From: Cellulomonas sp. IC4_254 | GTDB taxonomy: Bacteria > Actinomycetota > Actinomycetes > Actinomycetales > Cellulomonadaceae | Direction of reading: 5' to 3' | Assembly (NCBI RefSeq): GCF_011603975.1 | Contig: NZ_JAANNB010000014.1 | Span: 1-34,810, forward strand | DNA: 34,810 nucleotides | Shown: positions 3,531 to 34,810 of the stretch, piece after piece | How the letters are laid out: every line of letters starts with the position of its first letter | How positions within the stretch are numbered: the first letter of the stretch is position 1 | Notes under the pieces: model-generated | The model's input: only the letters and a program-made list of their open reading frames with translations | What the model was told of the DNA's origin: nothing | The model's database searches: none | Made by a program: the position numbers and the translations under genes

Positions 3531-5128
3531 CAGCGCCGCCCGGCGGGGGTCAGCCAGCCGCGCAGGAGGTCCGCGACCTCCTCGGGCTGCTCGTCGGCGA
3601 GCGCGGCGATCTCGGCGCGCTTGACGGCGAGGGACTCCTGCGCCGGGTCCAGCTCGGCCGGGCCGGGCAGGGCGGGCGGGATCTCGGGCAGCTCCTCGAG
3701 CTCGGCGGCCGGGTCGGGGCCGTCCATCAGGGGCAGCTCGCCGATGTCGAGCGCCTCGCGCTTGCTGCGCCGCGAGCGGCGGGCCAGCACGACCGCGACC
3801 ACGATCACCAGCAGCAGCAGGGCGCCGGCGATCACGGCCTGCCGGAGCAGGTCGGCGCGGCGGTCGGCCTCGGCCTGGGCGTCGGCGGCCGCGAGGGCCT
3901 CCGCCGCGGCGTCGGCGCCGGTGGTGTCGAAGGCCATGGCCTGCACGGCGATGGTGTCGCCGCGGGCCGTGTCGATGCCGGCGGCGGCGGTCAGCGTGGC
4001 GGTGAGCTGGTTCAGGTCGATGCCGGCCGCGGCGGTCTGGTCGACCAGCACGGCGAGCGACTGCTTCTCGACGGTGCCCGGCGCCACGGTGGTGACCTCG
4101 GTGACCTTGTTCACGGCGTTGCTGACGTCCTCGGTCGTGTTCGTGTACGAGCCGGTGCCGTCGCCCTCGCCCGTGGGGACCGCGATGTTGTCCGGGCCGA
4201 GCACGCCGGTGGCGGTGCCGGAGCCCGAGCCGGTGTACTCCTCCGTCGTCGTCGAGGACACGAGCGGCGGGGTGCCCTCGGTCGCCGAGAACTCCTCGGA
4301 GGTCCGCTGCGTCTGGTCCTGGTTCAGCGAGGCGGTGACGGTCACGGCGGACTTGCCCGCGCCGACCACCTGGTCCAGCAGCGCCTGCACGGCGCTGGTG
4401 ACCCGCTGCTCGTAGGCGGAGGTGGCCTCGTCGCCGGTGCCGCCGGTGATCCCGGTGCCGACCTCGGAGAGCACCTTGCCGGTGGAGTCGACCACGGCGA
4501 CGTCGGTGGCCTTCATGCCCTCGATGCCCGCGGACACCAGGTGCACGATCGCCTCGACCTGGTCGTTGCTCAGCTGGGTGCCGGTCTTGGTGCGCACGAA
4601 CACCGACGCCGTCGGGTCCTGCTGCTGGGAGACGAACACCGAGTCCTCCGGCAGCGCGAGCTTCACCGTGGCGGCCTCGACGCCGGACATGGCGCCGACC
4701 GTCTTGGCGAGCTCGCCCTCCAGGGCGCGGGTGTAGGTGGTCTGCTGCTGGAACTCGCTGGACGTCATCGACATCCCGTCGAGCAGCGAGTAGCCGTCGC
4801 CGTCCGCGTTGGCGGGCAGGCCGGCGGCCGCGAGCTTCAGCCGCATCGCGTAGAGCTGGTCCTGCGGCACCATCACCGTGCCGCCGCCGTCGGTGAGCTC
4901 GTAGGCGACGCCCTCGGCGGACAGCTGGTCGACCACGGCCGACGCGTCGGTCGCGGACAGGCCGGAGAACAGCGGGGCCAGCGTGGGCTTCGAGGCCCAC
5001 GAGTAGATCGCGAACCCGCCGAGCAGGATCGCGGCGACCGCGATGACCGCGAAGGTCTTCTGCGGCAGCGAGAACTGCTTGACCGCGCCGCTCATGCGGC
5101 CGAACAGGGACTTCACCTGGGCGGGCAT
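3530..5128 (-). CDS. fliF: Flagellar MS-ring protein FliF
   Basis: 532 aa. FliF forms the membrane-embedded MS ring on which the rest of the basal body assembles. A first membrane segment lies at about residues 25-44 (FAVIAVAAILLGGFAIYSW), then the periplasmic YscJ/FliF-type ring domains, then a second membrane segment at about 431-450 followed by a basic RRSRRSK cluster. The last 40 residues form an acidic helix ending in DLLRGWLTPAGRR, the FliG-binding tail. The ring domain contains the expected DGGGTVMVP and LALPEDSVFV segments. The gene starts one base inside the fliE stop (TGATG) and ends the same way into fliG. Confidence 0.97.
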   Translation of the reverse strand: MPAQVKSLFGRMSGAVKQFSLPQKTFAVIAVAAILLGGFAIYSWASKPTLAPLFSGLSATDASAVVDQLSAEGVAYELTDGGGTVMVPQDQLYAMRLKLAAAGLPANADGDGYSLLDGMSMTSSEFQQQTTYTRALEGELAKTVGAMSGVEAATVKLALPEDSVFVSQQQDPTASVFVRTKTGTQLSNDQVEAIVHLVSAGIEGMKATDVAVVDSTGKVLSEVGTGITGGTGDEATSAYEQRVTSAVQALLDQVVGAGKSAVTVTASLNQDQTQRTSEEFSATEGTPPLVSSTTTEEYTGSGSGTATGVLGPDNIAVPTGEGDGTGSYTNTTEDVSNAVNKVTEVTTVAPGTVEKQSLAVLVDQTAAAGIDLNQLTATLTAAAGIDTARGDTIAVQAMAFDTTGADAAAEALAAADAQAEADRRADLLRQAVIAGALLLLVIVVAVVLARRSRRSKREALDIGELPLMDGPDPAAELEELPEIPPALPGPAELDPAQESLAVKRAEIAALADEQPEEVADLLRGWLTPAGRR

Positions 5129-5481
5129 CAGGCCTGCATCCTCATGATCTCGGTGAACGCGTCGACGGCCTTGTTGCGCACGGCGGCGGTGAGCTCGAGG
5201 GCGAGCTTCGCCTCGGACGACGCGACCGTGTAGTCGTGCACGTCGTCGAGGTCGCCGGTGACGGCCTGGACCGCGAGCGCGTTGCTCGTGGACTGGAGCT
5301 GCTGGACGTGGTCGACGGCGCCGAGCGCCGCGGCGAACCCGCCGTCGGCGCCGGTGGTGCCGGTCGCGGCGCCGGCGGAGCCGGTCGCCCCGGTCCCCGC
5401 GAGGCCGGCGACGTCCGACAGCTCGGACAGGTAGGAGGTGCCGGACACGCCGGACACCCCGCTGACGGGCTGGATGCTCAC
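5128..5481 (-). CDS. fliE: Flagellar hook-basal body protein FliE
   Basis: 117 aa. FliE joins the MS ring to the proximal rod. The N-terminal third is a Gly/Ala/Thr-rich flexible segment (about 1-48); the conserved C-terminal helices include [21 protein letters not shown] (about 88-108), ending EIMRMQA as is typical of FliE. The GTG start at 5481 overlaps the flgC stop as GTGA; an upstream extension of the same frame would sit inside flgC and is not used. Order flgB-flgC-fliE-fliF is the classical one and supports the assignment. Confidence 0.95.
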
Positions 5482-5882
5482 GAGTTCCGTCCGATCTGCA
5501 GCGCCGCCTCGTAGGAGGTCTTCGCGCGGTCCACGACCGCCGCGTTCGCCTGGTAGCCGCGCTGCGCCATGATCAGCTGCGTCATCTGGGAGGCCATGTC
5601 GACCTCGGGGTACCGCACGTAGCCGTCCTCGTCCGCGAGCGGGTTGGTCGGCTCGTAGACCACACGGCCCTCGGCGGGGCCGAGCGCGATGCCGGAGACC
5701 TGCGCGCCGCCGCCGTTCGCGGTGGGGATCTCCGACGCCACGACGTACTTGGCCTGGTAGGCGGCCTCGGAGGTCGAGGTCGCGTTGTTCATGTTCGCGA
5801 GGTTGTCGCTGACCGCGTCGATCCACTTGCGGTACACGGTCATGCCGGTGCTGGCGACGCCGATCGCCCCGAACGTCGTCAT
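5478..5882 (-). CDS. flgC: Flagellar basal-body rod protein FlgC
   Basis: 134 aa, a proximal rod subunit exported into the periplasmic space or cell-wall zone. The N-terminal rod signature is present ([17 protein letters not shown], residues about 21-37) and so is the C-terminal family signature ([19 protein letters not shown], about 96-114). The ATG shares one base with the flgB stop (TGATG), and the 3' end overlaps fliE. The product is typical in length with no visible defect. Confidence 0.96.
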
Positions 5883-6229
5883 CAGGAAGTCCTCATCGCG
5901 GTGCGGACGCTGGAGAAGGTGCCGTCGACCGCCTGGGTCGCCAGCTGGTAGCGCAGCTGCGTGTCGACGTTGAGCAGCGTCTCCTCGTCGAGGTTGACGT
6001 TGTTGCCGTCGGTGCGCGTGGGCTCGAGGGAGCGGGCCGTGGTGGCCGAGGCGGCGCCGGTGCCGGCGGAGACCGCGCGGGCGAGGGCGTCCTCGAACTG
6101 GACCTTCTTGGCGTGGTAGCCGGGGGTCTGGATGTTCGCCACGTTCTCGGCGATGGCGCGCTGGCGCGCGGCCAGGCCGTCGAGCGCGCTGTTGATCGCG
6201 ACGTAGCTGACGGAGTCGAACATGCCCAT
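5882..6229 (-). CDS. flgB: Flagellar basal-body rod protein FlgB
   Basis: 115 aa, a proximal rod subunit and the first gene of the eight-gene basal-body and export operon. The rod signature [20 protein letters not shown] is at about residues 28-47. The start chosen is the ATG at 6229; a second ATG two codons later (MFDSVSY) is equally possible. A GGTGAGGG ribosome site lies about 9-16 bases upstream. A flagellar-type promoter at 6311-6337 should drive the whole flgB-to-fliJ transcript with a leader of about 75 bases. Confidence 0.95.
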
Positions 6230-6310
6230 GCAGGGTCACCCTCACCCGAGGTTGGTCCTGGTCGGCCTAGTCCGTGGCCTGCTGCGCGAGCGATCCGTGC
6301 TCACGCGTCC

Positions 6311-6337
6311 CATCGGCGGGGAACGGGTCGTGCTGAG
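6311..6337 (-). promoter_or_regulatory. Flagellar sigma promoter of the flgB operon
   Basis: On the minus strand the sequence reads CTCAGC, 14 bases, GCCGATG. This matches the motif seen before five other transcription units of the window (one mismatch in the -35 hexamer) and resembles the FliA/WhiG consensus TAAA-N15-GCCGATAA. It lies about 75 bases before the flgB ATG in a 245-base intergenic stretch. Confidence 0.75.
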
Positions 6338-6430
6338 GTGTGCGCCCGAGAAATGTCGCGGATCACTCGCGCGGCGGACGCGATTCGAACGGGTTGTCCG
6401 AATTTGCCGGAGAATGTCCGGCGGCCTTTG

Positions 6431-6468
6431 TGGGTGCTGGCACCCAGGCGGTCCCGGGCGCACCCGGG
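6431..6468 (-). terminator. Tandem hairpins after the fliD-fliS-FliT-like unit
   Basis: Two inverted repeats follow the last stop of the fliD operon: a 7-base-arm repeat at 6431-6446 (TGGGTGC-TG-GCACCCA) and a 6-base-arm repeat at 6453-6468 (CCCGGG-CGCA-CCCGGG). There is no T-run, as is usual in high-GC actinobacteria. Together with the separate flgB promoter they suggest an operon boundary here. The rest of 6230-6474 holds that promoter and a relatively AT-rich patch with two TGTCCG repeats. Confidence 0.4.
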
Positions 6469-6474
6469 GCCGGC

Positions 6475-6918
6475 TCAGCCCTCGACGTCGAGGTAGGCCG
6501 GGGCCGGGGCCGGGCGGGTGCGCAGGCCGTCGGTCGTGCGCAGCCGGCGGCGGTGCTCGGCGAGCTGGTCGCCCGTGCGGCGCGCGAGGTCGCGCTGGCG
6601 CTCGACGAGCGCGGCGGCGCGCGGGGCGAGCGAGGCGGGCAGCGGGCCGAGCCCGCGCGGGGTGCGCCAGGGCGCGGTCAGGGCGACATCGACGGGCTGC
6701 GGGTCACCGGCGCGCTGCGCGCCGGCGAGCAGCTCCTCCGCGCGCTCCGCGCCGAGCTCCATCTCGGCGAGGGCGGCCACCCAGGCGGCCTCCCGGCCGG
6801 GGCGGCCGGGGTCGGCCGCCTCGCGCTCGGCGCCGTGCTGCCCGGGGCGGGCGTCCGCGTCGAGCGCCGCCGAGGCGGTGCTGCGCTCGACCGGCGCGAC
6901 CGCCGTGTCAGCCGACAC
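6475..6918 (-). CDS. Small protein in the FliT position of the fliD-fliS operon
   Basis: 147 aa, GTG start, overlapping the fliS 3' end by 11 bases out of frame. I do not recognise a family signature. The protein is Ala/Arg/Glu-rich. Its N-terminal half ends in a helix-like stretch AAWVAALAEMELGAERAEE (about 44-62), and a second helix near the C terminus reads AAALVERQRDLARRTGDQL (about 100-118). In many bacteria the gene after fliS encodes FliT, a short helical chaperone for the filament cap FliD. Gene position, size and helical character fit that role, but there is no clear sequence match. Treat it as a candidate flagellar chaperone or regulator of unknown function. Confidence 0.7.
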   Translation of the reverse strand: MSADTAVAPVERSTASAALDADARPGQHGAEREAADPGRPGREAAWVAALAEMELGAERAEELLAGAQRAGDPQPVDVALTAPWRTPRGLGPLPASLAPRAAALVERQRDLARRTGDQLAEHRRRLRTTDGLRTRPAPAPAYLDVEG

Positions 6919-7376: not shown

Positions 7377-8732
7377 TCAGTCGGAGGAGCCCGAGAGCTG
7401 CGAGAGCTGGGTGGTGAGGTAGTCGGACTGGGAGTTCAGGTTCGACAGCTGGACCTCCATCGCCGCGTACATCGTGGTCAGCGAGGCGCGGCGCGCCTCC
7501 AGCCGGATGTCCCAGTCGGCGATGCGGTCGGTCAGGTCCTTGACCTCGCTGTCGTAGCTCTGCACCTGCAGGGTCAGCGTGCCCTTGGCGGAGTCGGAGG
7601 CGACCTCGCCGATCTTCTGCAGCGAGCCGGCGACGCCCTGGACGGCCTTGCTCACCGCGTCGGGGTCGTTGGTCAGCGCGGTCTGGAACGCGGTCGCGTC
7701 GAACGCGAACGTGCCGTCCTTGCCCAGCGTGATGCCGATGCCCGCCAGCGAGGTGTTGTTCGCGGAGTTCGACCCGGCCGCGAGCAGCGACTGCTGCAGG
7801 GAGCGGATGGTGGCGTTCCCGGAGAACAGGCCGGCGGTGAGGATCGAGGTGCCCTCGTCGTTCGTGCTGGTCTTGCTCGTCGTGTAGGACGTGATGTCGC
7901 CCAGCACGGCGTTGAGGTTGTTCACCAGCCCCTGCGCCAGCGCCGCGAGCTTGGAGTCGTCCCGGGTCACGTCGACGGTGACGGGGTCGGTGGTCTTCGC
8001 GGTCACCGTGACGTTGACGCCGGTGACCAGGTTCTCGAAGACGTTCTTGGACGAGGTGACCTTCTGCTCGGCGCCGGTGCCGGGCCACAGCACGATCTCG
8101 GCGTCGGACGCCTCGCGGATCGCCTTGGACCCCAGCGTCGCGCCGTCGGCCGCGTTGTCCACGGCGAGGCTGAAGGTGTTCTCCTTGCCGGTCTCGGTGC
8201 CGGTGAGCTGCAGCCGGTACTCCGGCGCGGCGGCGGTGCCGACGTTGAGGGCGGACGCCTTGACGCCCGTGCCCTCGGCGTTGAAGGCGGCGACGATGTC
8301 GCCGATGTTGCTGCTCAGCGCCTTCACCGACACGGTCTCGCCGTCGGCGCCGGTCAGCGTGAAGGTCGGGGTGTCCGACGAGTAGCCCGTCGGCAGCGTG
8401 TAGAGCGTCGACTGCGAGGCCGCGACCGAGTCGACGCGGAACGAGACGCTCGACGGGCGCGCGTCGGAGGTGGTCGTCGCGGTGACGGACTCCGCGGAGG
8501 ACTTCGCCTTCACGGCCTCCCAGGACGACGCGGTCGCGGCGGACTTCGCCGCCGCCGTCAGGGAGGCGACCTTGGCGTTCAGCGCCTGCAGCGCGGAGGA
8601 CTGCGACGACAGCGTGCTCTTCTTCTTCGCGAGCAGCGTCTGCTGGTTGGCCTCCAGCGCGATGGTGGAGTCGATCAGGTCTGCCGTGGGGAAGTTGCTG
8701 ATCAGCCCGGTGCTGAAGGTGATGCCGGCCAT
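7377..8732 (-). CDS. fliD: Flagellar filament cap protein FliD
   Basis: 451 aa. FliD (HAP2) caps the growing filament and directs flagellin insertion outside the cell. The N-terminal signature is the short FSTGLISNFPTADLIDSTIA region (about 5-24), followed by a coiled coil (LLAKKKSTLSSQSSALQAL, about 33-51). The conserved C-terminal helices include DLTDRIADWDIRLEARRASL and end LSQLSGSSD. Start ATG 8732 has an AGGAGG ribosome site about 11 bases upstream; in-frame extension further upstream would run into the flagellin terminator and is rejected. I see no good copy of the flagellar promoter in the 66 bases between terminator and gene, so transcription may come from read-through. Confidence 0.94.
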   Translation of the reverse strand: MAGITFSTGLISNFPTADLIDSTIALEANQQTLLAKKKSTLSSQSSALQALNAKVASLTAAAKSAATASSWEAVKAKSSAESVTATTTSDARPSSVSFRVDSVAASQSTLYTLPTGYSSDTPTFTLTGADGETVSVKALSSNIGDIVAAFNAEGTGVKASALNVGTAAAPEYRLQLTGTETGKENTFSLAVDNAADGATLGSKAIREASDAEIVLWPGTGAEQKVTSSKNVFENLVTGVNVTVTAKTTDPVTVDVTRDDSKLAALAQGLVNNLNAVLGDITSYTTSKTSTNDEGTSILTAGLFSGNATIRSLQQSLLAAGSNSANNTSLAGIGITLGKDGTFAFDATAFQTALTNDPDAVSKAVQGVAGSLQKIGEVASDSAKGTLTLQVQSYDSEVKDLTDRIADWDIRLEARRASLTTMYAAMEVQLSNLNSQSDYLTTQLSQLSGSSD

Positions 8733-25931: not shown

Positions 25932-27149
25932 TCACCCCTCCGCGAGCCGGTCGAGCGCCAGCGCCGCGAGCACCGCCGGGCCGACCGCGAGCGCCCCGTC
26001 CTCGAACCGCGCCTGCGCGGAGTGGTTGTACGGCGCGGTCCGCGGGTCGGCGTCGGCGAGCGTGGCGCCGACGCCGAGGTACGTGCCGGGGACCTGCTGG
26101 AGCACGTAGGAGAAGTCCTCGGACCCGGCGAGCGGCTGCGGCGCGTCCACGTAGGCGCGCTCGCCGAACAGCCCGGCGGTGAGCCGCGCGAGCCGCTCGA
26201 CCTCCTCGGGCCGGTTCGACGTGACCGGGTAGCCCCGCTGGTAGTCGACGGTGACGGACAGCCCGTGCGCGGCGGCGACGCCCTCGCACACCCGCGCGAA
26301 CCGCTCGGGCACCAGGCCGTGCACCGCCTCGGAGAACGTCCGGACGGTCGCCTCGATGCGGGCGTCTGCGGGGATCACGTTGTCGGTGGTGCCGGCCTCG
26401 ATCCGCCCCACGGTGACCACGACCGGGTCGAACACGTCGAACTGCCGGGTGACCATCGCCTGCAGCGCGAGCACGATCTCGGCGGCCACGGGCACCGGGT
26501 CCAGCGCGAGGTGCGGCATGGAGCCGTGCCCGCCGCGCCCGTGCACCGTGACGTGCACGGTGTCCGCGGCGGCCAGCAGGGTGCCGGGGCGGCTGGTCAC
26601 GGCGCCGGTGGGCAGGATGGACGACAGCACGTGCAGGCCGTACGCGGCGACGACCCGCTCCCCCGCGGCGTCCAGCACCCCCTCCTCGATCATGAGGCGC
26701 GCGCCGTGGTCGCCCTCCTCGCCGGGCTGGAACATCAGGACGACCGAGCCGGCGATATCGTCGCGGCGCGCGGCGAGCAGCCGGGCGGCGGCGACCAGGC
26801 CCGCGACGTGCAGGTCGTGCCCGCACGCGTGCATGGCGCCGGGCACCTCGCTGGCGAACGGCTCGCCGGTCTCCTCGGTCACGGGCAGCGCGTCCATGTC
26901 GCCGCGCAGCAGCACCGACGGGCCGGGGCGCGCGCCGCGCAGCACGGCCACGACGGACGACAGCCCGGCGCCGGTGCGCACCTCCAGACCCAGCGGCTCC
27001 AGCGCCTCCAGGACCAGCGCCTGGGTGCGCGGCAGGTCGAGCCCGATCTCCGGGGTGCGGTGCAGGGCGTGGCGGAGCGCGGCCGTGTCGGGCAGCAGCG
27101 CCCGGGCGTCGGCGCGCAGGGCGTCCAGGGCGGAGCGGTCGAGCGGCAT
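25932..27149 (-). CDS. M20 family amidohydrolase
   Basis: 405 aa, a zinc/manganese hydrolase of the M20D type (hippurate, IAA-amino acid or N-acyl amino acid hydrolases). Motifs: RHALHRTPEIG (26-36), LLRGDMDALPV (80-90), the metal ligands CGHD at 109-112, QPGEE at 141-145 with the catalytic Glu, YGLHV further on, GRGGHGSMPH in the dimerisation domain, and YNHSA near the C terminus. All expected ligands are present, so it should be active; the substrate is unknown. It starts 23 bases after the MHS transporter, suggesting that the transporter imports the substrate or exports the product. A weak hairpin at 25915-25929 precedes the stop on the plus strand. Confidence 0.92.
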   Translation of the reverse strand: MPLDRSALDALRADARALLPDTAALRHALHRTPEIGLDLPRTQALVLEALEPLGLEVRTGAGLSSVVAVLRGARPGPSVLLRGDMDALPVTEETGEPFASEVPGAMHACGHDLHVAGLVAAARLLAARRDDIAGSVVLMFQPGEEGDHGARLMIEEGVLDAAGERVVAAYGLHVLSSILPTGAVTSRPGTLLAAADTVHVTVHGRGGHGSMPHLALDPVPVAAEIVLALQAMVTRQFDVFDPVVVTVGRIEAGTTDNVIPADARIEATVRTFSEAVHGLVPERFARVCEGVAAAHGLSVTVDYQRGYPVTSNRPEEVERLARLTAGLFGERAYVDAPQPLAGSEDFSYVLQQVPGTYLGVGATLADADPRTAPYNHSAQARFEDGALAVGPAVLAALALDRLAEG

Positions 27150-27172: not shown

Positions 27173-28492
27173 TCAGCGTGCGGCGGGCGTCCCGGCGGGG
27201 CCGGGTGCCTCGGACGGCTCGGCGCGGGTCCCCGCGAGCGTCTCGACGGGGTAGAGCAGCCGCTCGCCGACGAGCCACGAGCCGACGGCGGACACCGTCA
27301 GCCCCGCCGCAGCCCACACCGGGACCAGGCGCAGCGCGTCGCGGGAGATCAGCCACTCGGCCACGAACAGGAACGTACCGCCGAACAGGGCGATGGCGGC
27401 GCCCGCCGGGACACCCAGCGCCACGGCCCGGATCGGCACCGGGAACAGCCGCGCGCCGGCGACCGGCGTGACCCCGAGCTGCAGGCCCACGCAGATGGTG
27501 AACAACGGTGCCGCGACCAGGTACGGCACCACCCCGGCCGCCAGCCCGAGCATCAGCGGCACCACCAGCACCGCGGCGGCGGTGAACCCCGTGCGGATCA
27601 GCACGAGCGGCCCGAACCGGTCGGCCAGGAACCCGGAGGCGATCATCGCGACCAGCAGGCAGATCAGCGCGACGGTGTGCTGCGAGGCCGCCTGGGTCTC
27701 GGTGTACCGGCCGGTGTGCCCGGCGAACTCCGGGAGGTACACCGACCCGAAGTAGACACCCATGGTCGACCCGATCGTCAGCATGAACGCGAGCGCCATC
27801 CGCCCGGCGTGCCGGCGCAGCAGCGGGCCCGGCGGCTCCGCCCCTGCGTCCCGCGCCCGCTCGAACACCTCCGACTCCGGGACCCCGCGCCGGATCCACA
27901 GCGCCAGCAGCCCGCACAGCGCGGCGATCACGAACGCGATCCGCCAGCCGCCGTCGCGCAGCCCGTCCGGGCCGAGGACCCCGAGCAGCACCGCGAGCAC
28001 GACGGTGCCGCCGAGCGTGCCTAGCGCGTCGCCGGAGTAGGCGAACGCCCCGTACCGGTGCCGGCGCTCGGGCGGGGCGACCTCGACGACGTAGGTGGCG
28101 GCCGTGGCGACCTCGCCGCCCATCGCGATGCCCTGCAGCATCCGGGCGAGCACGACGACCACCGCGGCCCACCAGCCGGCCACCGCGTAGGTCGGCGCCG
28201 CCGCGATGACCGCCGCCCCGAGCGCGATGAGCGACACCGACGCCAGCAGACCCGTCCGGCGGCCCTTCGTGTCGGTGATCCGGCCCATCACGTACGACCC
28301 GAGCGGCCGGACCACGAAGCCGACGGCGAACACGACGTAGGCCCCCAGCACCCGGGTCACCGGGTCGTCGCCGGGGAACACCTGCCCCGCGAAGTACGGC
28401 GCGAGCAGCGCGTACATCGTCCAGTCGAGCGACTCCACGAAGATCCCCGCGGTGCTCGCCACCACGACCCGTGCCCTGCGCACCCGTGCCAT
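27173..28492 (-). CDS. MHS-family MFS transporter
   Basis: 439 aa, about 12 membrane segments. The metabolite:H+ symporter branch (ProP/KgtP type) is shown by the N-terminal SLDWTMYALLAPYFAGQVFP (about 21-40), the PLGSYVMGRITDTKGRRTGL loop (about 63-82), LQGIAMGGEVATAATYVVE, and RRGVPESEVFE in the central loop. Start ATG 28492 has GGGAGG 5 bases upstream. It probably imports an organic acid, osmolyte or amino acid derivative by proton symport. Coupled with the M20 amidohydrolase downstream and divergent from the helicase-associated gene (72-base gap). Confidence 0.9.
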   Translation of the reverse strand: MARVRRARVVVASTAGIFVESLDWTMYALLAPYFAGQVFPGDDPVTRVLGAYVVFAVGFVVRPLGSYVMGRITDTKGRRTGLLASVSLIALGAAVIAAAPTYAVAGWWAAVVVVLARMLQGIAMGGEVATAATYVVEVAPPERRHRYGAFAYSGDALGTLGGTVVLAVLLGVLGPDGLRDGGWRIAFVIAALCGLLALWIRRGVPESEVFERARDAGAEPPGPLLRRHAGRMALAFMLTIGSTMGVYFGSVYLPEFAGHTGRYTETQAASQHTVALICLLVAMIASGFLADRFGPLVLIRTGFTAAAVLVVPLMLGLAAGVVPYLVAAPLFTICVGLQLGVTPVAGARLFPVPIRAVALGVPAGAAIALFGGTFLFVAEWLISRDALRLVPVWAAAGLTVSAVGSWLVGERLLYPVETLAGTRAEPSEAPGPAGTPAAR

Positions 28493-28564: not shown

Positions 28565-31069
28565 ATGGCCACGTTCAGCGAGCACCTGCGCGGCAGGTCG
28601 GACGACGAGCTGGTGCGCCTGCTGCTGCGGCGCCCGGACCTGGCGCACCCGTCGCCCGCCACGCTCGCCTCCCTCGCCGCCCGCGCCACGAGCCGGCCGA
28701 GCCTCGAGCGCGCCCTCGCCGGGGTGGACGCCGCGGTGCTGCAGGCGGTCGAGGCGGTCGTCGCGCTGCTGGCCGGGTCGACCGACCCGGCGGACGGGGT
28801 GCGGGCCCGCGACGTGGTGGCCGCGGTCGGCGCCGGGCGCTCCGACGCACCCGGAGTCCGCGCCGCGCTGGCGACCGCGACCGACCTGGCCCTGGTGCAC
28901 CCCGCGGGCGGGCGCGCGACCGACCCGCTGCTGCGCCCCGCGCCGGGGGTCGCCGAGCTGCTCGGCCCGTCGACGGCCGGCCTGGCCGCCCCCGCGCCGC
29001 ACGACCCGGACCCCGCAGCCGTCCCCGGGCTGCTCGCCGTCGCCCCCGCCGCGGGCCGCGCCGTGCTGGACGCGCTGACGTGGGGGCCGCCCGTCGGCGT
29101 GCGCCCGGCGTCCGGGCCCGCCGCCGAGGCCGTCACGGAGCTCGTGCGCGCCGGGCTGCTGGTCCGGGCGGACGAGCGGCACGTCGTCCTCCCCCGGACC
29201 GTCGCCCTCGCGCTGCGCGACGGCCGCACGCACCGCGCGCCGGCGACCCCGCCCGCCCCGGAGGACCTGCCGCGCCGGGACGCGACGCTGGTCGAGGCCG
29301 AGCACGCCGCCGCGGCCGAGCGCGCCGTCCGGCTGGTCGCGGGGCTGCTGCGGCTGTGGGGCCAGAGCCCGCCGCCCGTGCTGCGGGCCGGCGGCCTCGG
29401 CGTGCGCGACCTGCGCCGCACCGCGGCCGCGCTGGAGATCACCGAGCCGGAGGCGGCGTTCGTGGTCGAGCTCGCCGGTGTGGGCGCCCTCGTCCGCGAC
29501 GACGGCGAGGAGTCGCCGCACCACGTCCCGACGACCGTCGCCGACGAGTGGCTCGCCCTCGACCTCGCCGACCGGTGGGCGCGGCTCGCGTCCTGGTGGG
29601 CGGCCACCGCGCGCTGGCCCGCGCTGGTGGGCACCCGCGACGAGCGCGGCTCGGTGCGCCCCGCCCTCGGGCCGGAGCTCGGCCGCCCGTGGGCGCCGCG
29701 GCTGCGGCACGCGGTGCTCGGGCAGCTCGCGGACGCCGGGCCGGGCGCCGCGCCGGACGCCGCCGCGGTCCGCGAGGGGCTGGCCTGGCGCACGCCCCGG
29801 TCGGTGCCGCCGCTCGACGCCGTCGCCGCGGTGCTGCGCGAGGCCGGCTGGCTGGGCGTGCTCGGCGCGGGTGCGCTGCCGGTCGCGGGCCGGGCGCTGC
29901 TGGACTCCGACGTGGACCCCCGGCCCGCGCTGGCGGCCGGGCTCGGCGCCGCGCTGCCCCCGGCCGTCGACGACCTGCTGCTCCAGGCCGACCTCACCGG
30001 CATCGTGCCCGGGCGCCCGAGCCAGGAGCTGGAGGCGCTGCTCGACAGGTCCGCCCGGGTCGAGTCCCGCGGCGGCGCCGTCACGGTCCGGTTCACGCCG
30101 GAGTCCGTGCGGGACGCGCTGGACGCCGGGTCCACCGCGGACGACCTGCTCGCGGACCTGGCGGCGCACGCCCGGGGCGGGGTCCCGCAGCCGCTGGAGT
30201 ACCTGGTCCGGGACGCCGCGCGCCGGCACGGGCGGCTGCGCACCGGCGCCGCGTCCTCCTACGTGCGGACCGAGGACCCGGCGCTGCTGGCCGGGCTCGC
30301 CGAGGACCCCCGGCACGCCGACCTCGGGCTGGTCCGGCTCGCGCCGACCGTGCTCGCCGCGCAGGCGCCGCTGCACGAGCTGCTCGCCGCGCTGCGGGCG
30401 CACGGGCTGGCGCCGGTGGCCGAGACGCCGGACGGGCAGGTGCTGCACGCCGCGCCCACCGTGCGGCGGGTGGCGGCGGCACGGCCGCGGTTCGCCCCGG
30501 ACGACGCGGGGCGCGGGGCGCAGCCGCCGGCCGAGCGCGCGGCGGCCCTGGTCGGCGTGCTGCGCCGGGCCGAGGAGGCGCGGGCCGCGGGCGGGTCGAG
30601 CGGCGGGGCCGGCGCGGTGGTGCGCGGCGCGGCGGCGGAGGTCGCCGGGTCGGCCGCGCGCGGGGCCGCCGCGGCCGACGGCTCCCCCACGCTGCGCGAC
30701 CGCGCCTCGGGCGTCGCCGCCGCCACCGCGGCCGCCCGCGCCGACCGGACGACCGGCGCCCGCGGCGGTCCGCGCCCGTCGGCGGGAACAGCCGACCCCG
30801 CGGAGGCGTTGGGACTGCTGCGCGAGGCGGCGGCCGGGCACACCGAGGTGTGGCTCGACGTGGTCGGCTCGCGCGGCGCCCTGGAGCGGCGGCGGGTGCT
30901 GCCGGTCCGGGTCGACGGCGGACGGGTGCGCGTGGTGGACACCGCCCGGGACGCCGAGATCGTGGTCGCGGCCCACCGCGTCGCCGCGGTCACCCCGGTC
31001 GACGCGGCGGGTACCGAGCCGGCCGACGACGACGCAGCAGCCGACCCCCGGAGGACGGACACCGCATGA
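28565..31069 (+). CDS. Helicase-associated domain protein, XPB operon partner
   Basis: 834 aa. No helicase motor motifs are present. The N-terminal 450 residues are helical repeats without a recognised domain. Residues about 471-565 (LLLQADLTGIVPG ... RHGRLRTG) match the helicase C-terminal-like domain (Helicase_C_3) annotated in this family and resemble the N-terminal domain of the XPB helicase next door. Residues about 650-740 are an Ala/Gly-rich linker, followed by a C-terminal WYL-like strand segment (HTEVWLDVVGSRGALERRRV, about 760-779). The stop overlaps the helicase start (ATGA). A leaderless start at ATG 28565 is likely. It probably acts with the helicase in DNA repair or transcription; this is inference. 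Confidence 0.82.
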   Translation: MATFSEHLRGRSDDELVRLLLRRPDLAHPSPATLASLAARATSRPSLERALAGVDAAVLQAVEAVVALLAGSTDPADGVRARDVVAAVGAGRSDAPGVRAALATATDLALVHPAGGRATDPLLRPAPGVAELLGPSTAGLAAPAPHDPDPAAVPGLLAVAPAAGRAVLDALTWGPPVGVRPASGPAAEAVTELVRAGLLVRADERHVVLPRTVALALRDGRTHRAPATPPAPEDLPRRDATLVEAEHAAAAERAVRLVAGLLRLWGQSPPPVLRAGGLGVRDLRRTAAALEITEPEAAFVVELAGVGALVRDDGEESPHHVPTTVADEWLALDLADRWARLASWWAATARWPALVGTRDERGSVRPALGPELGRPWAPRLRHAVLGQLADAGPGAAPDAAAVREGLAWRTPRSVPPLDAVAAVLREAGWLGVLGAGALPVAGRALLDSDVDPRPALAAGLGAALPPAVDDLLLQADLTGIVPGRPSQELEALLDRSARVESRGGAVTVRFTPESVRDALDAGSTADDLLADLAAHARGGVPQPLEYLVRDAARRHGRLRTGAASSYVRTEDPALLAGLAEDPRHADLGLVRLAPTVLAAQAPLHELLAALRAHGLAPVAETPDGQVLHAAPTVRRVAAARPRFAPDDAGRGAQPPAERAAALVGVLRRAEEARAAGGSSGGAGAVVRGAAAEVAGSAARGAAAADGSPTLRDRASGVAAATAAARADRTTGARGGPRPSAGTADPAEALGLLREAAAGHTEVWLDVVGSRGALERRRVLPVRVDGGRVRVVDTARDAEIVVAAHRVAAVTPVDAAGTEPADDDAAADPRRTDTA

Positions 31070-32760
31070 CCGACGGACCCCTGATCGTCCAGAGCGACAA
31101 GACCCTCCTGCTCGAGGTCGACCACGACCAGGCGGAGGCCTGCCGCCGCGCGATCGCCCCGTTCGCGGAGCTGGAGCGCGCGCCCGAGCACGTGCACACC
31201 TACCGGCTGACCCCGCTGGGCCTGTGGAACGCCCGGGCGGCCGGCCACGACGCCGAGCAGGTCGTCGACACGCTGCTGGAGTACTCGCGGTACCCGGTGC
31301 CGCACGCGCTGCTGGTCGACGTCGCCGAGACGATGTCCCGGTACGGGCGGCTGCAGCTCGTCGCGCACCCGGTGCACGGCCTGGTGCTGCACGCCCTCGA
31401 CGCCGCGGTGCTGGCCGAGGTGCTGCGCTCCAAGCGCACCGCCGGCCTGGTCGGCGAGCGGATCGACGACACCGACGTCGTGGTGCACGCCTCCGAGCGC
31501 GGCACTCTGAAGCAGGCGCTGCTCAAGCTCGGCTGGCCCGCCGAGGACCTCGCGGGCTACGTCGACGGCGAGGCGCACCCGATCGACCTGGACACCTCCG
31601 GCGAGTCGAACCTCGGCACCGACGGAGCCCCGCGCCCGTGGCAGCTGCGGCCGTACCAGGCCGAGGCCGCGGACGGGTTCTGGCACGGCGGCTCCGGCGT
31701 CGTCGTGCTGCCCTGCGGTGCCGGCAAGACCCTGGTCGGCGCGGCCGCGATGGCCCGGTCCAAGACCACGACGCTGATCCTCGTCACCAACACCGTGTCC
31801 GCGCGGCAGTGGCGGGACGAGCTGATCCGCCGCACCTCGCTCACGCCCGACGAGATCGGCGAGTACTCGGGCTCCCGCAAGGAGATCCGCCCGGTCACGA
31901 TCGCGACGTACCAGGTCCTCACGCTCAAGCGGAAGGGGATCTACCCGCACCTGGAGCTGCTCGACGCCCGCGACTGGGGCCTCATCGTCTACGACGAGGT
32001 GCACCTGCTGCCCGCGCCGATCTTCCGGATGACCGCGGACCTGCAGGCGCGCCGCCGCCTCGGCCTCACCGCCACCCTGGTGCGCGAGGACGGCCGCGAG
32101 GACGAGGTGTTCAGCCTCATCGGCCCCAAGCGGTACGACGCCCCGTGGAAGGACATCGAGGCGCAGGGCTACATCGCGCCCGCCGACTGCGTCGAGGTGC
32201 GGCTGACCCTGCCCGAGCGCGACCGGATGCTCTACGCGACCGCCGAGCCCGAGGACAAGTACCGCCTCGCGGCCAGCGCCCCCGGCAAGACCGAGGTCGT
32301 CAAGCGCCTGGTGGCGAAGCACCGCGGTGAGCCGCTGCTGGTCATCGGCCAGTACATCGACCAGCTCGAGGAGCTGGCCGCCGACATCGACGCGCCCGTC
32401 ATCACCGGCGGGACCAGCGTGACCGAGCGGCAGCGGCTGTTCGACGCGTTCCGTGCCGGGGAGATCTCGACGCTCGTGGTGTCCAAGGTCGCGAACTTCT
32501 CGATCGACCTGCCCGAGGCGTCCGTCGCCATCCAGGTGTCGGGGTCGTTCGGCTCCCGCCAGGAGGAGGCCCAGCGCCTCGGCCGGCTGCTGCGCCCCAA
32601 GGGCGACGGCCGCACCGCGCACTTCTACGCCGTGGTCGCGCGGGACACCGTCGACCAGGACTTCGCGGCGCACCGGCAGCGGTTCCTCGCGGAGCAGGGG
32701 TACGCGTACCGCATCGTCGACGCCGAGGACCTGGAGCAGGCGACGGAGGAGCCGGCCTGA
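31066..32760 (+). CDS. XPB/Rad25-type superfamily 2 DNA helicase
   Basis: 564 aa. Bacterial homologue of the TFIIH subunit XPB, a 3'-5' DNA helicase/translocase. An N-terminal domain (about 5-100) resembles the domain in the upstream protein. The motor carries LRPYQAEAADGFW (194-206), Walker A LPCGAGKT (215-222), motif Ia LVTNTVSARQWRDEL, the DEVH box (310-313), motif III LTATL (334-338), the XPB-typical RED triplet (340-342), and motif VI QEEAQRLGRLLRPKG. The gene is complete, with GGAGGA 13 bases before its ATG. Mycobacterial XPB is a working helicase; its role in bacteria is unsettled. A strong terminator follows. Confidence 0.95.
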   Translation: MTDGPLIVQSDKTLLLEVDHDQAEACRRAIAPFAELERAPEHVHTYRLTPLGLWNARAAGHDAEQVVDTLLEYSRYPVPHALLVDVAETMSRYGRLQLVAHPVHGLVLHALDAAVLAEVLRSKRTAGLVGERIDDTDVVVHASERGTLKQALLKLGWPAEDLAGYVDGEAHPIDLDTSGESNLGTDGAPRPWQLRPYQAEAADGFWHGGSGVVVLPCGAGKTLVGAAAMARSKTTTLILVTNTVSARQWRDELIRRTSLTPDEIGEYSGSRKEIRPVTIATYQVLTLKRKGIYPHLELLDARDWGLIVYDEVHLLPAPIFRMTADLQARRRLGLTATLVREDGREDEVFSLIGPKRYDAPWKDIEAQGYIAPADCVEVRLTLPERDRMLYATAEPEDKYRLAASAPGKTEVVKRLVAKHRGEPLLVIGQYIDQLEELAADIDAPVITGGTSVTERQRLFDAFRAGEISTLVVSKVANFSIDLPEASVAIQVSGSFGSRQEEAQRLGRLLRPKGDGRTAHFYAVVARDTVDQDFAAHRQRFLAEQGYAYRIVDAEDLEQATEEPA

Positions 32761-32793
32761 GCCGGTGACCCCCGCGGGTGATCCACCGCGCGC

Positions 32794-32827
32794 GACGGCC
32801 CGTCCGGGAACCCCCGGGCGGGCCGTC
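32794..32827 (+). terminator. Strong terminator after the XPB helicase
   Basis: A 15-pair stem (9 base pairs, one T-G pair, 5 base pairs) closes a 4-base AACC loop: arms 32794-32808 and 32813-32827. TCGTTG follows rather than a T-run. It separates the helicase operon from the TPM gene that starts 40 bases later. Confidence 0.8.
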
Positions 32828-32866
32828 TCGTTGCGAGGGGTGCACGCCCTGAGAAAGGATCGTCGG

Positions 32867-34810
32867 GTGCCGTCGTCGTCCCGTGGCTGGTCAGCCGCCG
32901 TCCCGCTCCTGTCCGCGCTGGTCGCCGCCCCGCTGCTGGCAGGGGCCGCCCCGGCGCTCGCCGCCGTGCCGGAGGCACCGCCGCTGCCCGCGGCCGACCC
33001 GCAGGCCCTGGACGGCGAGATCACCGACCAGGTCGGCGCGCTGTCGGGCGGGGACGAGGCGACCGTGCAGGCGGCGCTGGACCAGCTGTCGGACGAGACG
33101 CAGTACCAGCTGTACGTCGTGTACGTGGACGAGTTCAGCACCGAGCGGATCGCCTGGGTGGACCAGACCGCGGAGCTGACCGGCCTGGGCTCGAACGACC
33201 TCGTGCTCGCGGTCGCGACGGAGCAGCGGTCGTACGTGCTCGCGCCCCAGGAGGTCCCCGGCCTGTCCGGCAACGACCTCGACCGGATCGCGGCGGACGT
33301 CGAGGACCACCTGAGCGAGGACGACTGGGCGGGTGCCGCCGTCACGGCCGCCGACGAGGTGCGCGAGGCCGCGACCGGCGGCGGGTCCGGCTCGGGGCTG
33401 GGCTGGCTGTTCGTGGGCGGCCTGGTCGTCATCGCGGCGCTCACGGCCGTGGCGTGGGCGTCGTCCCGGCGCCGCGCCTCCCGGCAGAAGATCGCCGCGG
33501 GCACGCCCGGGCGGTTCCCGGGCGGCCCGCAGGTCCCCGGCGGCCCGGCCGGCGAGCTCGCCGCGCTGCCGACCGCCGAGCTCGACCGCCGGTCCGCGTC
33601 CGCGCTGGTCGGCATCGACGACGCGCTGCGCGCCTCGGAGCAGGAGCTCGGCTTCGCCCAGGCCCAGTTCGGGCCGGACGCGACCCGCGAGTTCGAGCAG
33701 GTGCTCACCCGGGCGAAGGCCGACGTGACGGAGGCGTTCCGGCTCCGGCAGACCCTGGACGACGACGTGCCGGACACCGAGCCGCAGGTCCGCGAGACCG
33801 CGACCCGGATCCTGCACATGGTCGGCGCCGCGTCGGCGGCGCTGGACGCCCAGAAGGAGTCCTTCGACCGGATGCGCGACGTCGAGTCCCGCGCCGGGGA
33901 GGCGCTGGACGCGCACGAGCGCACCGCCGCCGAGCTGCGCGCCCGGGTCGAGACGTCCCGCGCGACGCTCGGCACCCTCGCCGCCCGGTACCCCGCGGAG
34001 GCGCTGACGTCCGTGACCGGCAACCCGGACCAGGCGCTCGCGCTGCTGTCCGAGGTCGGCACCGCGGTCGAGCAGGGCCGGGCGGCGGTCGCGGCCGGGG
34101 ACCGCGCGGTCGCCGTCCGGTACGCCCGCGCCGCCGAGGAGGCGCTCGGCCAGGTCGGCCAGCTCCTGGACGCCGTCGACCGCGCGGGCACCGAGCTCGC
34201 CACGATCGGCTCGCGTCTCGACGCGGCGATCGCGTCGATCTCCTCCGACGTGGACGACGCGCAGCGCCTCGCCCCCCGGCACCCCGAGGTGTCCGCCCGG
34301 GCCGAGGCCGCGCGCGCCGCGATCACCACCGGGCAGGCCGCGCGCGCCGGGGACGGCGACCCGCTCGCCGCCCTGCGCACCCTCACCGAGGCGGAGGCGG
34401 CGATCGACCGCGCGCTGGCGCCGATGCGGGAGGCGCAGGACCGCGCGACCCGCGCCCGGCAGCTGCTCGACCAGACGCTCGGCCGGGTGGACTCCGCGCT
34501 GCGCGGCACCACCGACTACATCGAGACGCGGCGCGGGGCGGTCGGCCCCGAGGCGCGCACCCGGCTCGCGGAGGCCGGCCGGATGTTCCGGGCCGCGGTC
34601 GACCAGCGGGACACCGACCCCGAGGCCGCGCTCGGCCAGGCGCAGCAGGCCGAGCGCCTGGTGCGGGAGGCCCAGCAGCTCGCGCAGCGCGACGTCGACT
34701 GGTACGACCAGCAGCGGCGCGGCGGCCCGGGCAACCGCGGCAGCGGTGGCGGGCTGGGCGACATCGGCGGCATGGTGCTGGGCGGCATCCTCATCGACTC
34801 GATCCTGCGC
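32867..34810 (+). CDS. TPM domain membrane protein (3' end cut by window)
   Basis: 648 codons without a stop. The start is GTG 32867, preceded by AAAGGA. Signal-peptide-like N terminus: basic start, then LLSALVAAPLLAGAAPALAA (about 14-33). The extracellular TPM domain (about 45-165) shows YQLYVVYVDEFST and LVLAVATEQRSYVLAP. A membrane segment WLFVGGLVVIAALTAVAWA (about 180-198) is followed by a basic stop, then about 430 residues of Ala/Glu/Arg/Gln-rich coiled coil. The last visible residues are Gly-rich, GGGLGDIGGMVLGGILIDS, typical near the C terminus of this actinobacterial family, so little is missing. TTGCGA (32831-32836) and AAGGAT (32855-32860) could be a promoter. Function is unknown; cell-envelope location is inferred. 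Confidence 0.88.
   Translation, partial: MPSSSRGWSAAVPLLSALVAAPLLAGAAPALAAVPEAPPLPAADPQALDGEITDQVGALSGGDEATVQAALDQLSDETQYQLYVVYVDEFSTERIAWVDQTAELTGLGSNDLVLAVATEQRSYVLAPQEVPGLSGNDLDRIAADVEDHLSEDDWAGAAVTAADEVREAATGGGSGSGLGWLFVGGLVVIAALTAVAWASSRRRASRQKIAAGTPGRFPGGPQVPGGPAGELAALPTAELDRRSASALVGIDDALRASEQELGFAQAQFGPDATREFEQVLTRAKADVTEAFRLRQTLDDDVPDTEPQVRETATRILHMVGAASAALDAQKESFDRMRDVESRAGEALDAHERTAAELRARVETSRATLGTLAARYPAEALTSVTGNPDQALALLSEVGTAVEQGRAAVAAGDRAVAVRYARAAEEALGQVGQLLDAVDRAGTELATIGSRLDAAIASISSDVDDAQRLAPRHPEVSARAEAARAAITTGQAARAGDGDPLAALRTLTEAEAAIDRALAPMREAQDRATRARQLLDQTLGRVDSALRGTTDYIETRRGAVGPEARTRLAEAGRMFRAAVDQRDTDPEAALGQAQQAERLVREAQQLAQRDVDWYDQQRRGGPGNRGSGGGLGDIGGMVLGGILIDSILR

Follow-up and report, generated by a model that had tools for sequence, protein, structure and literature searches.

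A candidate p52-like partner of the bacterial XPB helicase with a WYL-like C-terminal end

Background

In Cellulomonas sp. IC4_254 the gene of an XPB DNA-repair helicase overlaps the gene of a larger protein, and a part of each looks alike. This raises the question of what the larger protein, referred to here as the partner, is, and whether the likeness marks it as a protein that works together with XPB. The window considered in the current analysis is a stretch of 34,810 nucleotides.

Bacterial XPB is thought to work without a complex like TFIIH, and homologues of the other TFIIH subunits are described as unfound in bacteria, in the portion of the source available (PMC3353954), which also reports that the purified bacterial enzyme is active only in large excess. 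A review of 2026, in the section consulted, still refers to the function of XPB in bacteria as elusive (PMC13024598). In TFIIH the N-terminal domain of XPB and residues 306-399 of p52 (GTF2H4) share a fold and pair as a pseudo-symmetric dimer, the clutch, that recruits XPB, as described in the available parts of two papers (PMC6422496, PMC9557730). Excerpts of further work state that p52/p8 also restrain the speed of XPB (PMC7708078) and that the XPB-p52 clutch is affected in human disease (PMC6422496).

Results and discussion

The two genes and their common domain

The partner gene (28565-31069, forward strand) is delineated from the sequence, the Pfam match and an AF2 model, and encodes 834 residues. 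It is followed on the same strand by the gene of a protein of 564 residues (31066-32760) that scores 862.9 bits with the NCBIfam equivalog NF045503, above the cut-off of 610, and is thus a bacterial XPB. The stop of the first gene and the start of the second share an ATGA at 31066-31069, as the earlier note had read. Among named relatives, those closest to the partner come from Cellulosimicrobium and Cellulomonas (L033-L036), with 79-92% identity over the best segment. Several relatives carry the public name 'helicase-associated domain-containing protein', which tells nothing of the likeness to p52 or of the WYL-like end described below.

Both proteins are full-length members of the Pfam family PF13625 (Helicase_C_3). 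All the 125 positions of the family are covered in the partner at residues 471-593 (29975-30343; E-value 7.1e-38, 129.9 bits) and in XPB at residues 6-134 (31081-31467; E-value 5.1e-39, 133.6 bits), the cut-off being 34.2 bits. In XPB this N-terminal domain is followed by the helicase core (31642-32730), made up of the Pfam domains ResIII (193-339) and ERCC3_RAD25_C (365-555). A direct BLASTP comparison of the two proteins is weaker, with 53 residues aligned at 34% identity (E-value 8e-4). The short motifs on which the likeness had initially been based are found where they were placed, at partner residues 471, 497, 508, 538 and 554 and at XPB residues 6, 33, 46, 76 and 92.

Pairwise profile comparison, a check proposed in the earlier note, aligns partner residues 471-618 with XPB residues 6-160 over 148 columns at a probability of 99.1% (E-value 1e-18). 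The profiles drew on 52 XPBs and on 55 partners, two of which are paralogues lacking an XPB close by. In five further pairings of parts the probability was 0.1-0.2%. Taken by halves, the clutch domain aligns at 98.6% and a second subdomain following it at 94.1%; the latter comprises partner residues 563-619 (30251-30421), is common to XPB residues 106-159 and recurs in a stand-alone open reading frame of Deinococcus. In a mixed alignment MAFFT also placed 50 partner-only rows onto the XPB half. The common homologous domain that had been noticed by eye is therefore borne out, and the homology is longer than first noted, since it extends to about residue 160 of XPB and does not end near residue 100.

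As judged from sequence comparison, the shared domain is more than a chance likeness. It is not new at this level, since it is already catalogued as PF13625 and the homology is implied by Pfam. The clutch domain is also the best-conserved stretch of the partner alignment, with a column identity of 0.59-0.71 at residues 481-570 and of 0.32-0.56 before residue 451. The genome from which the window comes, a draft of 407 contigs, has PF13625 at two places only, which are the partner and XPB.

Co-occurrence and gene order in Actinomycetota

Among 296 genomes of Actinomycetota, 92 have a match above the PF16203 cut-off. XPB was counted at 139 bits or more (49 genomes); below this line the scores drop to 70 bits. 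When the genes were read individually, 48 of these 49 genomes had PF13625 in XPB and also in a further gene; in the single exception (G083) XPB runs into the end of a contig. Two further genomes (G135 and G194) have one sub-cut-off PF13625 match each and no XPB at the 139-bit line.

A set of 167 genomes of the class, overlapping partly with the 296, gives a similar view. PF13625 is encoded in 149 of them, and 148 of the 149 have it at a minimum of two places. No PF16203 match was found in any of the 18 genomes that lack PF13625, nor in any of the 19 when the genome with a single PF13625 place is included. This last genome (G301) is a draft that encodes a partner without XPB, and the partner lies 3.8 kb from a contig end. 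Joint absence is seen inside one genus code (none in G358, two places in G398) and inside families, as in f9 (none in genus g13, two places in g221) and f89 (none in g239, two places in the other genera). Even genomes of 1.2-1.5 Mb (family f84, genera g212 and g241) retain two PF13625 places. The partner and XPB are near-strictly co-occurring and are repeatedly absent together.

Both genes are found in 134 of 162 stretches examined (the window, L033-L040 and L044-L196). They are on the same strand in 130 of the 134 loci, with the partner always first, and on opposite strands in 4. By boundaries based on alignment, the spacing in the same-strand loci is within 300 bases in 60 and wider in 70, and the genes touch or overlap in 17. 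Five stretches have no partner: L066 and L092, together with L093, L098 and L099, which have weak or extra PF13625 matches. XPB is missing from the stretch in 23 cases. In all the 16 searched genomes with a partner-only stretch XPB is encoded elsewhere in the genome, and the remaining seven stretches are extra copies (L094-L097), a stretch whose XPB lies in L066 (L065), one with XPB cut at the end (L040) and the locus of G301 (L130). The extra partner paralogues of G285 and G182 (L094 and L096) are without XPB within the 8 kb examined.

The opposite orientation in the four loci, and the wide separation of the genes in others (G366: 759 kb and 5.01 Mb), favour an alternative in which the two clutch domains each bind a common third target, DNA or protein, alone, so that the proteins would serve one pathway with their clutch domains unpaired. 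The TFIIH structures argue against it. There, in a solved system that contains a pair of domains of this kind, one binds the other and XPB is anchored, according to the available parts of PMC6422496 and PMC9557730. We consider the alternative unlikely, and the pairing of the two clutch domains is preferred in what follows.

Plasmids and other phyla

In a plasmid collection 11 records match the N-terminal domain of XPB. Five of these are plasmids of Deinococcus (three), Gloeocapsopsis and Paenibacillus, and so span Deinococcota, Cyanobacteriota and Bacillota. In all five a PF13625-matching gene adjoins XPB or is one small gene off, with scores of 34.9-41.3 bits in Deinococcus, 61.2 bits in Paenibacillus and 31.5 bits, under the 34.2 cut-off, in Gloeocapsopsis. 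XPB comes first in the four plasmids of Deinococcus and Paenibacillus and the partner comes first in Gloeocapsopsis. The small gene between XPB and the partner in Deinococcus is an open reading frame of 99-115 residues that matches the second subdomain of the partner (95.9%, E-value 6e-9).

Five of the six actinobacterial plasmid records with an XPB N-terminal match also match the partner; the sixth, a 22 kb plasmid of C. diphtheriae, has no partner match, and the 10 kb viewed carry no partner annotation. Conversely, 11 plasmid records have a partner-like match and, on the plasmids alone, six of these have no XPB match.

Predicted fold of the partner and its likeness to p52/Tfb2

The AF2 model of the partner has a pLDDT of 89.1 and a pTM of 0.83. 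In a Foldseek search of the model against 350,542 PDB chains the best 36 rows are all from TFIIH entries, taken as p52/Tfb2 or XPB/Ssl2 from chain letters, lengths and names. The top row is a p52 chain with an E-value of 1.1e-6 over 508 columns. WYL proteins make up most of rows 37-50, at E-values of 0.06 or more, alongside one unrelated chain and one further Ssl2 chain. In the structure prediction, likewise proposed in the earlier note as a check, model residues 468-619 match the N-terminal domain of XPB with a VIA-align Z-score of up to 14.9.

The likeness to p52 appears to extend beyond the clutch domain. VIA-align finds the p52 chain 7nvv_2 with a Z-score of 12.8 (216 residues aligned, model 240-557, rmsd 8.8) and 6nmi_D with a Z-score of 12.2 (308 residues aligned, model 51-555, rmsd 17.3). 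The middle region of the partner (residues 231-460; 29255-29944), assigned from the p52 structure rows 6tru_C and 5oqj_2, matches p52 residues 128-318 without the clutch domain (model 230-447, Z-score 8.4, 154 residues aligned, rmsd 4.2-5.1 Å); taken alone this match is close to the level of generic winged helices in VIA-align. The N-terminal region (residues 1-230; 28565-29254) is predicted to be mostly helical with elements like winged helices, as judged from the AF2 model and structure matches. It has a generic winged-helix match to MarR (model 52-198, Z-score 8.2), and the long p52 alignments of VIA-align begin at residue 51. The rmsd of the long p52 alignments in Foldseek and VIA-align is large, about 9-28 Å, which indicates that the parts are co-linear and differ in their relative placement.

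The partner profile was compared with all PDB sequences and at E-values up to 10 matched 17, mainly of XPB/Ssl2, Tfb2/p52 and WYL proteins. Human XPB is matched with an E-value of 1e-4, Chaetomium Tfb2 (6trs_A, the best of the Tfb2/p52 sequences) with 0.0018, yeast Tfb2 with 0.05 and human p52 with 0.8. Two further rows are an 'AAA family ATPase' (8bnv, E-value 0.32), reached through the WYL-like tail, and a designed bundle (2.1). A profile of the clutch domain only matches XPB with an E-value of 1.8e-7 and Tfb2 with 0.033; a decarboxylase subunit and a designed barrel (0.018-0.022) rank above Tfb2 here, so that single p52 rows are weak when taken alone. In the reverse comparison a profile built from p52 clutch domains of three eukaryotic rows gives 95.6% (E-value 1.2e-8) with the clutch of the bacterial partner, a match that rests on about 33 residues (33 columns), and 65.9% (48 columns) with bacterial XPB. 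The 6.3% that it gives with human XPB comes from one human sequence only, so this last comparison is an unequal one.

In the Pfam hmmscan, at E-values up to 1, PF13625 is the sole family listed for the partner and the Tfb2 family is not among the matches. Sequences of p8 (Tfb5) and of the p52 C-terminal end, which pairs with p8, gave no profile match to parts of the partner or of XPB. A p8-like subdomain near residue 135 of XPB, suggested by a likeness to human p8 seen by eye, was dropped, since the p8 profiles score 14.5, under the best of 100 shuffles (15.3).

The partner thus resembles TFIIH p52/Tfb2 in its clutch domain, a homologue of the N-terminal domain of XPB, and in being a constant companion of XPB; N-terminal and middle regions of winged-helix type in the same order may be a further likeness, to the extent that flexible alignments can tell. 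It differs in the second subdomain that it has in common with XPB, and at its end, where a WYL-like barrel stands instead of the p8-binding part. The description that fits best is that of a p52-like XPB partner with a terminal WYL-like barrel. It is not filed as a member of the p52 family, as Pfam gives no Tfb2 match and both p8 pairing and binding are at most putative. What is new is that the whole partner, beyond the clutch domain, appears to resemble p52 and is co-inherited with XPB across phyla. Among the open-licence papers listed, as judged by title and the opening of the abstract, none gives a p52-like description of the partner; priority may exist elsewhere.

Comparison with archaeal Bax1

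The earlier note had suggested a bacterial counterpart of XPB partners such as archaeal Bax1, which would make the partner the nuclease of a helicase-nuclease complex. The two systems share the general analogy of an XPB with a dedicated, conserved neighbour, and nothing else supports the suggestion. According to the part of the review consulted (PMC13024598), the nuclease Bax1 contacts the thumb motif and HD2 of XPB, and XPB of A. fulgidus is reported, in a passage of PMC3353954, to be without the N-terminal domain considered here. The Pfam scan of the partner at E-values up to 1 gave no nuclease family, and the PDB matches of the partner profile at E-values up to 10 include no Bax1 chain, although a distant nuclease fold could escape both searches; absence from the VIA-align list, Bax1 included, does not exclude a family. 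The Bax1 proposal is therefore abandoned as barely credible, and p52/Tfb2 fits better as the counterpart of the partner.

The WYL-like C-terminal barrel

The C-terminal small barrel of the partner (residues 744-814; 30794-31006) matches the WYL domain of PafBC with a VIA-align Z-score of 11.1 and an rmsd of 1.4 over 71 residues. Across the WYL proteins PafBC, DriD, CapW and BrxR the Z-scores are 8.7 to 11.1, and PafC is also reached by the sequence search with the partner profile (E-value 1.1e-6). The same barrel matches designed SH3-like small barrels (Z-score 10.6) and Hfq (about 8), so that the fold agrees with that of WYL barrels and is not specific by itself. The Pfam scan at E-values up to 1 gave no WYL family for the partner. 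Of 135 partners, 126 have the tail and 9 lack it, whereas all 135 have the clutch domain. At the place of the W-Y-L residues, as we read the PafC alignment, most of the 126 tails have G-G-x-L/V, and the name-giving residues are not retained. In Deinococcus a putative tail of this kind appears similar by eye and reaches 10% by profile; Paenibacillus reaches 0.2%. The partner hence differs from the WYL proteins named above in that its barrel closes an XPB partner and lacks the W-Y-L residues.

The likeness of this barrel to those of the regulators PafBC, BrxR, CapW and DriD, and its presence in most partners, invite the proposal that the main role of the partner is that of a WYL/winged-helix regulator of transcription, with a domain derived from the clutch, acting on repair genes including xpb. 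The paralogues of G285 and G182 with no XPB in the 8 kb examined and the partner-like genes on XPB-less plasmid records are in keeping with it. Against it stand the partners that lack the tail and keep the clutch domain, the joint absence of partner and XPB, and a search of Pfam and NCBIfam at E-values up to 1 that gave no regulator family. A regulator of this kind seems highly unlikely, and the reading of the protein as a p52-like partner of XPB is retained.

Contact with XPB and proposed mode of action

From the shared domain the earlier note had suggested a complex or a common DNA or protein target. The reading as a complex gains support from the clutch dimer of TFIIH, the near-strict co-occurrence and the joint absence. 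Neither a linked AF2 model nor co-variation confirmed a contact, and binding is putative. The linked model (465 residues: the clutch domain, second subdomain and WYL-like barrel with XPB up to about residue 172; 12 linked, 41 partner-only and 17 XPB-only rows) has a pLDDT of 88.1 and a pTM of 0.55, on a scale where, by a rough and uncomputed estimate, about 0.4 corresponds to no fixed arrangement and 0.7 to a fixed one. Mutual information over 135 partner/XPB pairs (88 effective) places 6 of the top 300 pairs between the clutch domain and the XPB N-terminal domain, against 7.5 expected. The middling pTM and the lack of a co-variation signal count towards binding of a common third target, considered above.

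The explanation that we favour, with a probability of about two in three, is that the partner is a constant partner of XPB with the build of p52/Tfb2, whose clutch domain pairs with that of XPB and which tunes XPB and ties it to nucleic acid. Homology of the domains, the p52-like predicted fold, the WYL-barrel-like end and the co-inheritance are shown by the data above. A heterodimer with XPB, its regulation by the partner and the nucleic-acid signal are inferred, and the mode of action is most likely p52-like. The partner would have N-terminal and middle regions of winged-helix type, followed in order by the clutch domain, the second subdomain and the WYL-like barrel. Given the homology to the XPB/p52 clutch of TFIIH, we infer that the clutch domain and the XPB N-terminal domain would most likely meet face to face, in the manner of p52 and XPB there. 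The partner would hold XPB in this manner and tune its ATPase/translocase, and the winged helices and the WYL-like barrel may link XPB to DNA or to a signal in the form of single-stranded nucleic acid. A nucleic-acid ligand for the WYL-like end would be in keeping with related structures whose titles name single-stranded DNA as bound.

Regulation and defence context

The window was searched with patterns that we take to represent SOS-type and PafBC-type DNA-damage boxes. No SOS-type palindrome occurs in it within two mismatches. With up to three mismatches allowed, the PafBC-type pattern occurs 18 times (6.0 expected), and one of these sites, 26380-26402, has two mismatches. The site that most closely precedes the partner (28269-28291, three mismatches) lies inside an opposite-strand frame read as a transporter, and nothing is inferred from it for this reason. 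In PADLOC, XPB reaches PbeA and other helicase models, and no defence family was given for the partner.

Descent of the clutch pair

In a tree of 54 clutch domains one branch (77/93, not starred) has the XPB N-terminal domains together on the same side. The p52 sequences are placed beside the Deinococcus and Paenibacillus partners (82/89, drawn open), where long branches meet, and an alternative tree with p52 among the XPBs is 1.4 log units better (AU p 0.55). The tree thus leaves the placement of p52, with the partners or with the XPBs, undecided.

A wider reading, held tentatively and at rather less than an even chance, is that the XPB-p52 clutch pair is older than eukaryotes. Several bacterial phyla would carry XPB with a p52-like partner, the two being absent together (Actinomycetota, Deinococcota and Bacillota, with Cyanobacteriota added by a sub-cut-off match). 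The WYL-like end would sense single-stranded nucleic acid derived from damage and gate XPB, and the third gene of Deinococcus would repeat the subdomain that follows the clutch domain.

Significance

If the partner is indeed p52-like, it would provide a testable cofactor for bacterial XPB and could account for the large excess in which the purified enzyme is needed. The pair could also serve as a compact model for the XPB-p52 clutch that is affected in human disease. Rv0862c is presumably the relative of the partner in M. tuberculosis. If the proposed descent holds, it suggests that this part of TFIIH would predate eukaryotes, and bacteria may carry a small relative of the TFIIH machine.

Sequences within the window

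The reading frame that follows the XPB gene, within 32761-34810, looks like one for a secreted protein of the TPM type, judging from its sequence. An annotated TPM domain gene is also situated near XPB in Actinomyces oris.

A scan of the whole window with the PafBC-type damage-box pattern has revealed 18 sites at three or fewer mismatches against 6.0 expected, and none of 100 shuffles equalled or exceeded this number. The excess is possibly an effect of coding composition only.

Related genes in other genomes and plasmids

Additional places with the PF13625 domain, away from XPB, have been identified in three actinomycetotal genomes, G182, G285 and G255 (stretches L094, L095, L096 and L097), the maximum being four PF13625 places per genome. 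Two of these additional places (L094 and L096) are long paralogues resembling the partner. Two genomes of family f19, G135 and G194 (stretches L093 and L099), have a single PF13625 match each, which lies under the cut-off, and a PF16203 helicase at 62 bits that is not a clear XPB. The genome G301 (L130) encodes the partner, situated 3.8 kb from the contig end, and no XPB match was obtained in this draft of 230 contigs.

A mobilizable 22 kb plasmid record of Corynebacterium diphtheriae (L203) carries an XPB-like coding sequence (4995-6575), and across the 10 kb examined no gene is annotated as a partner. The neighbours of this coding sequence are transposases and resistance genes.

In plasmid operons of Deinococcus, an ORF of 99-115 residues is situated between the XPB gene and the partner gene (7747-8046 in stretch L197, 7738-8067 in L198 and 7734-8081 in L200). 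This small ORF is a stand-alone relative of the second subdomain of the partner.
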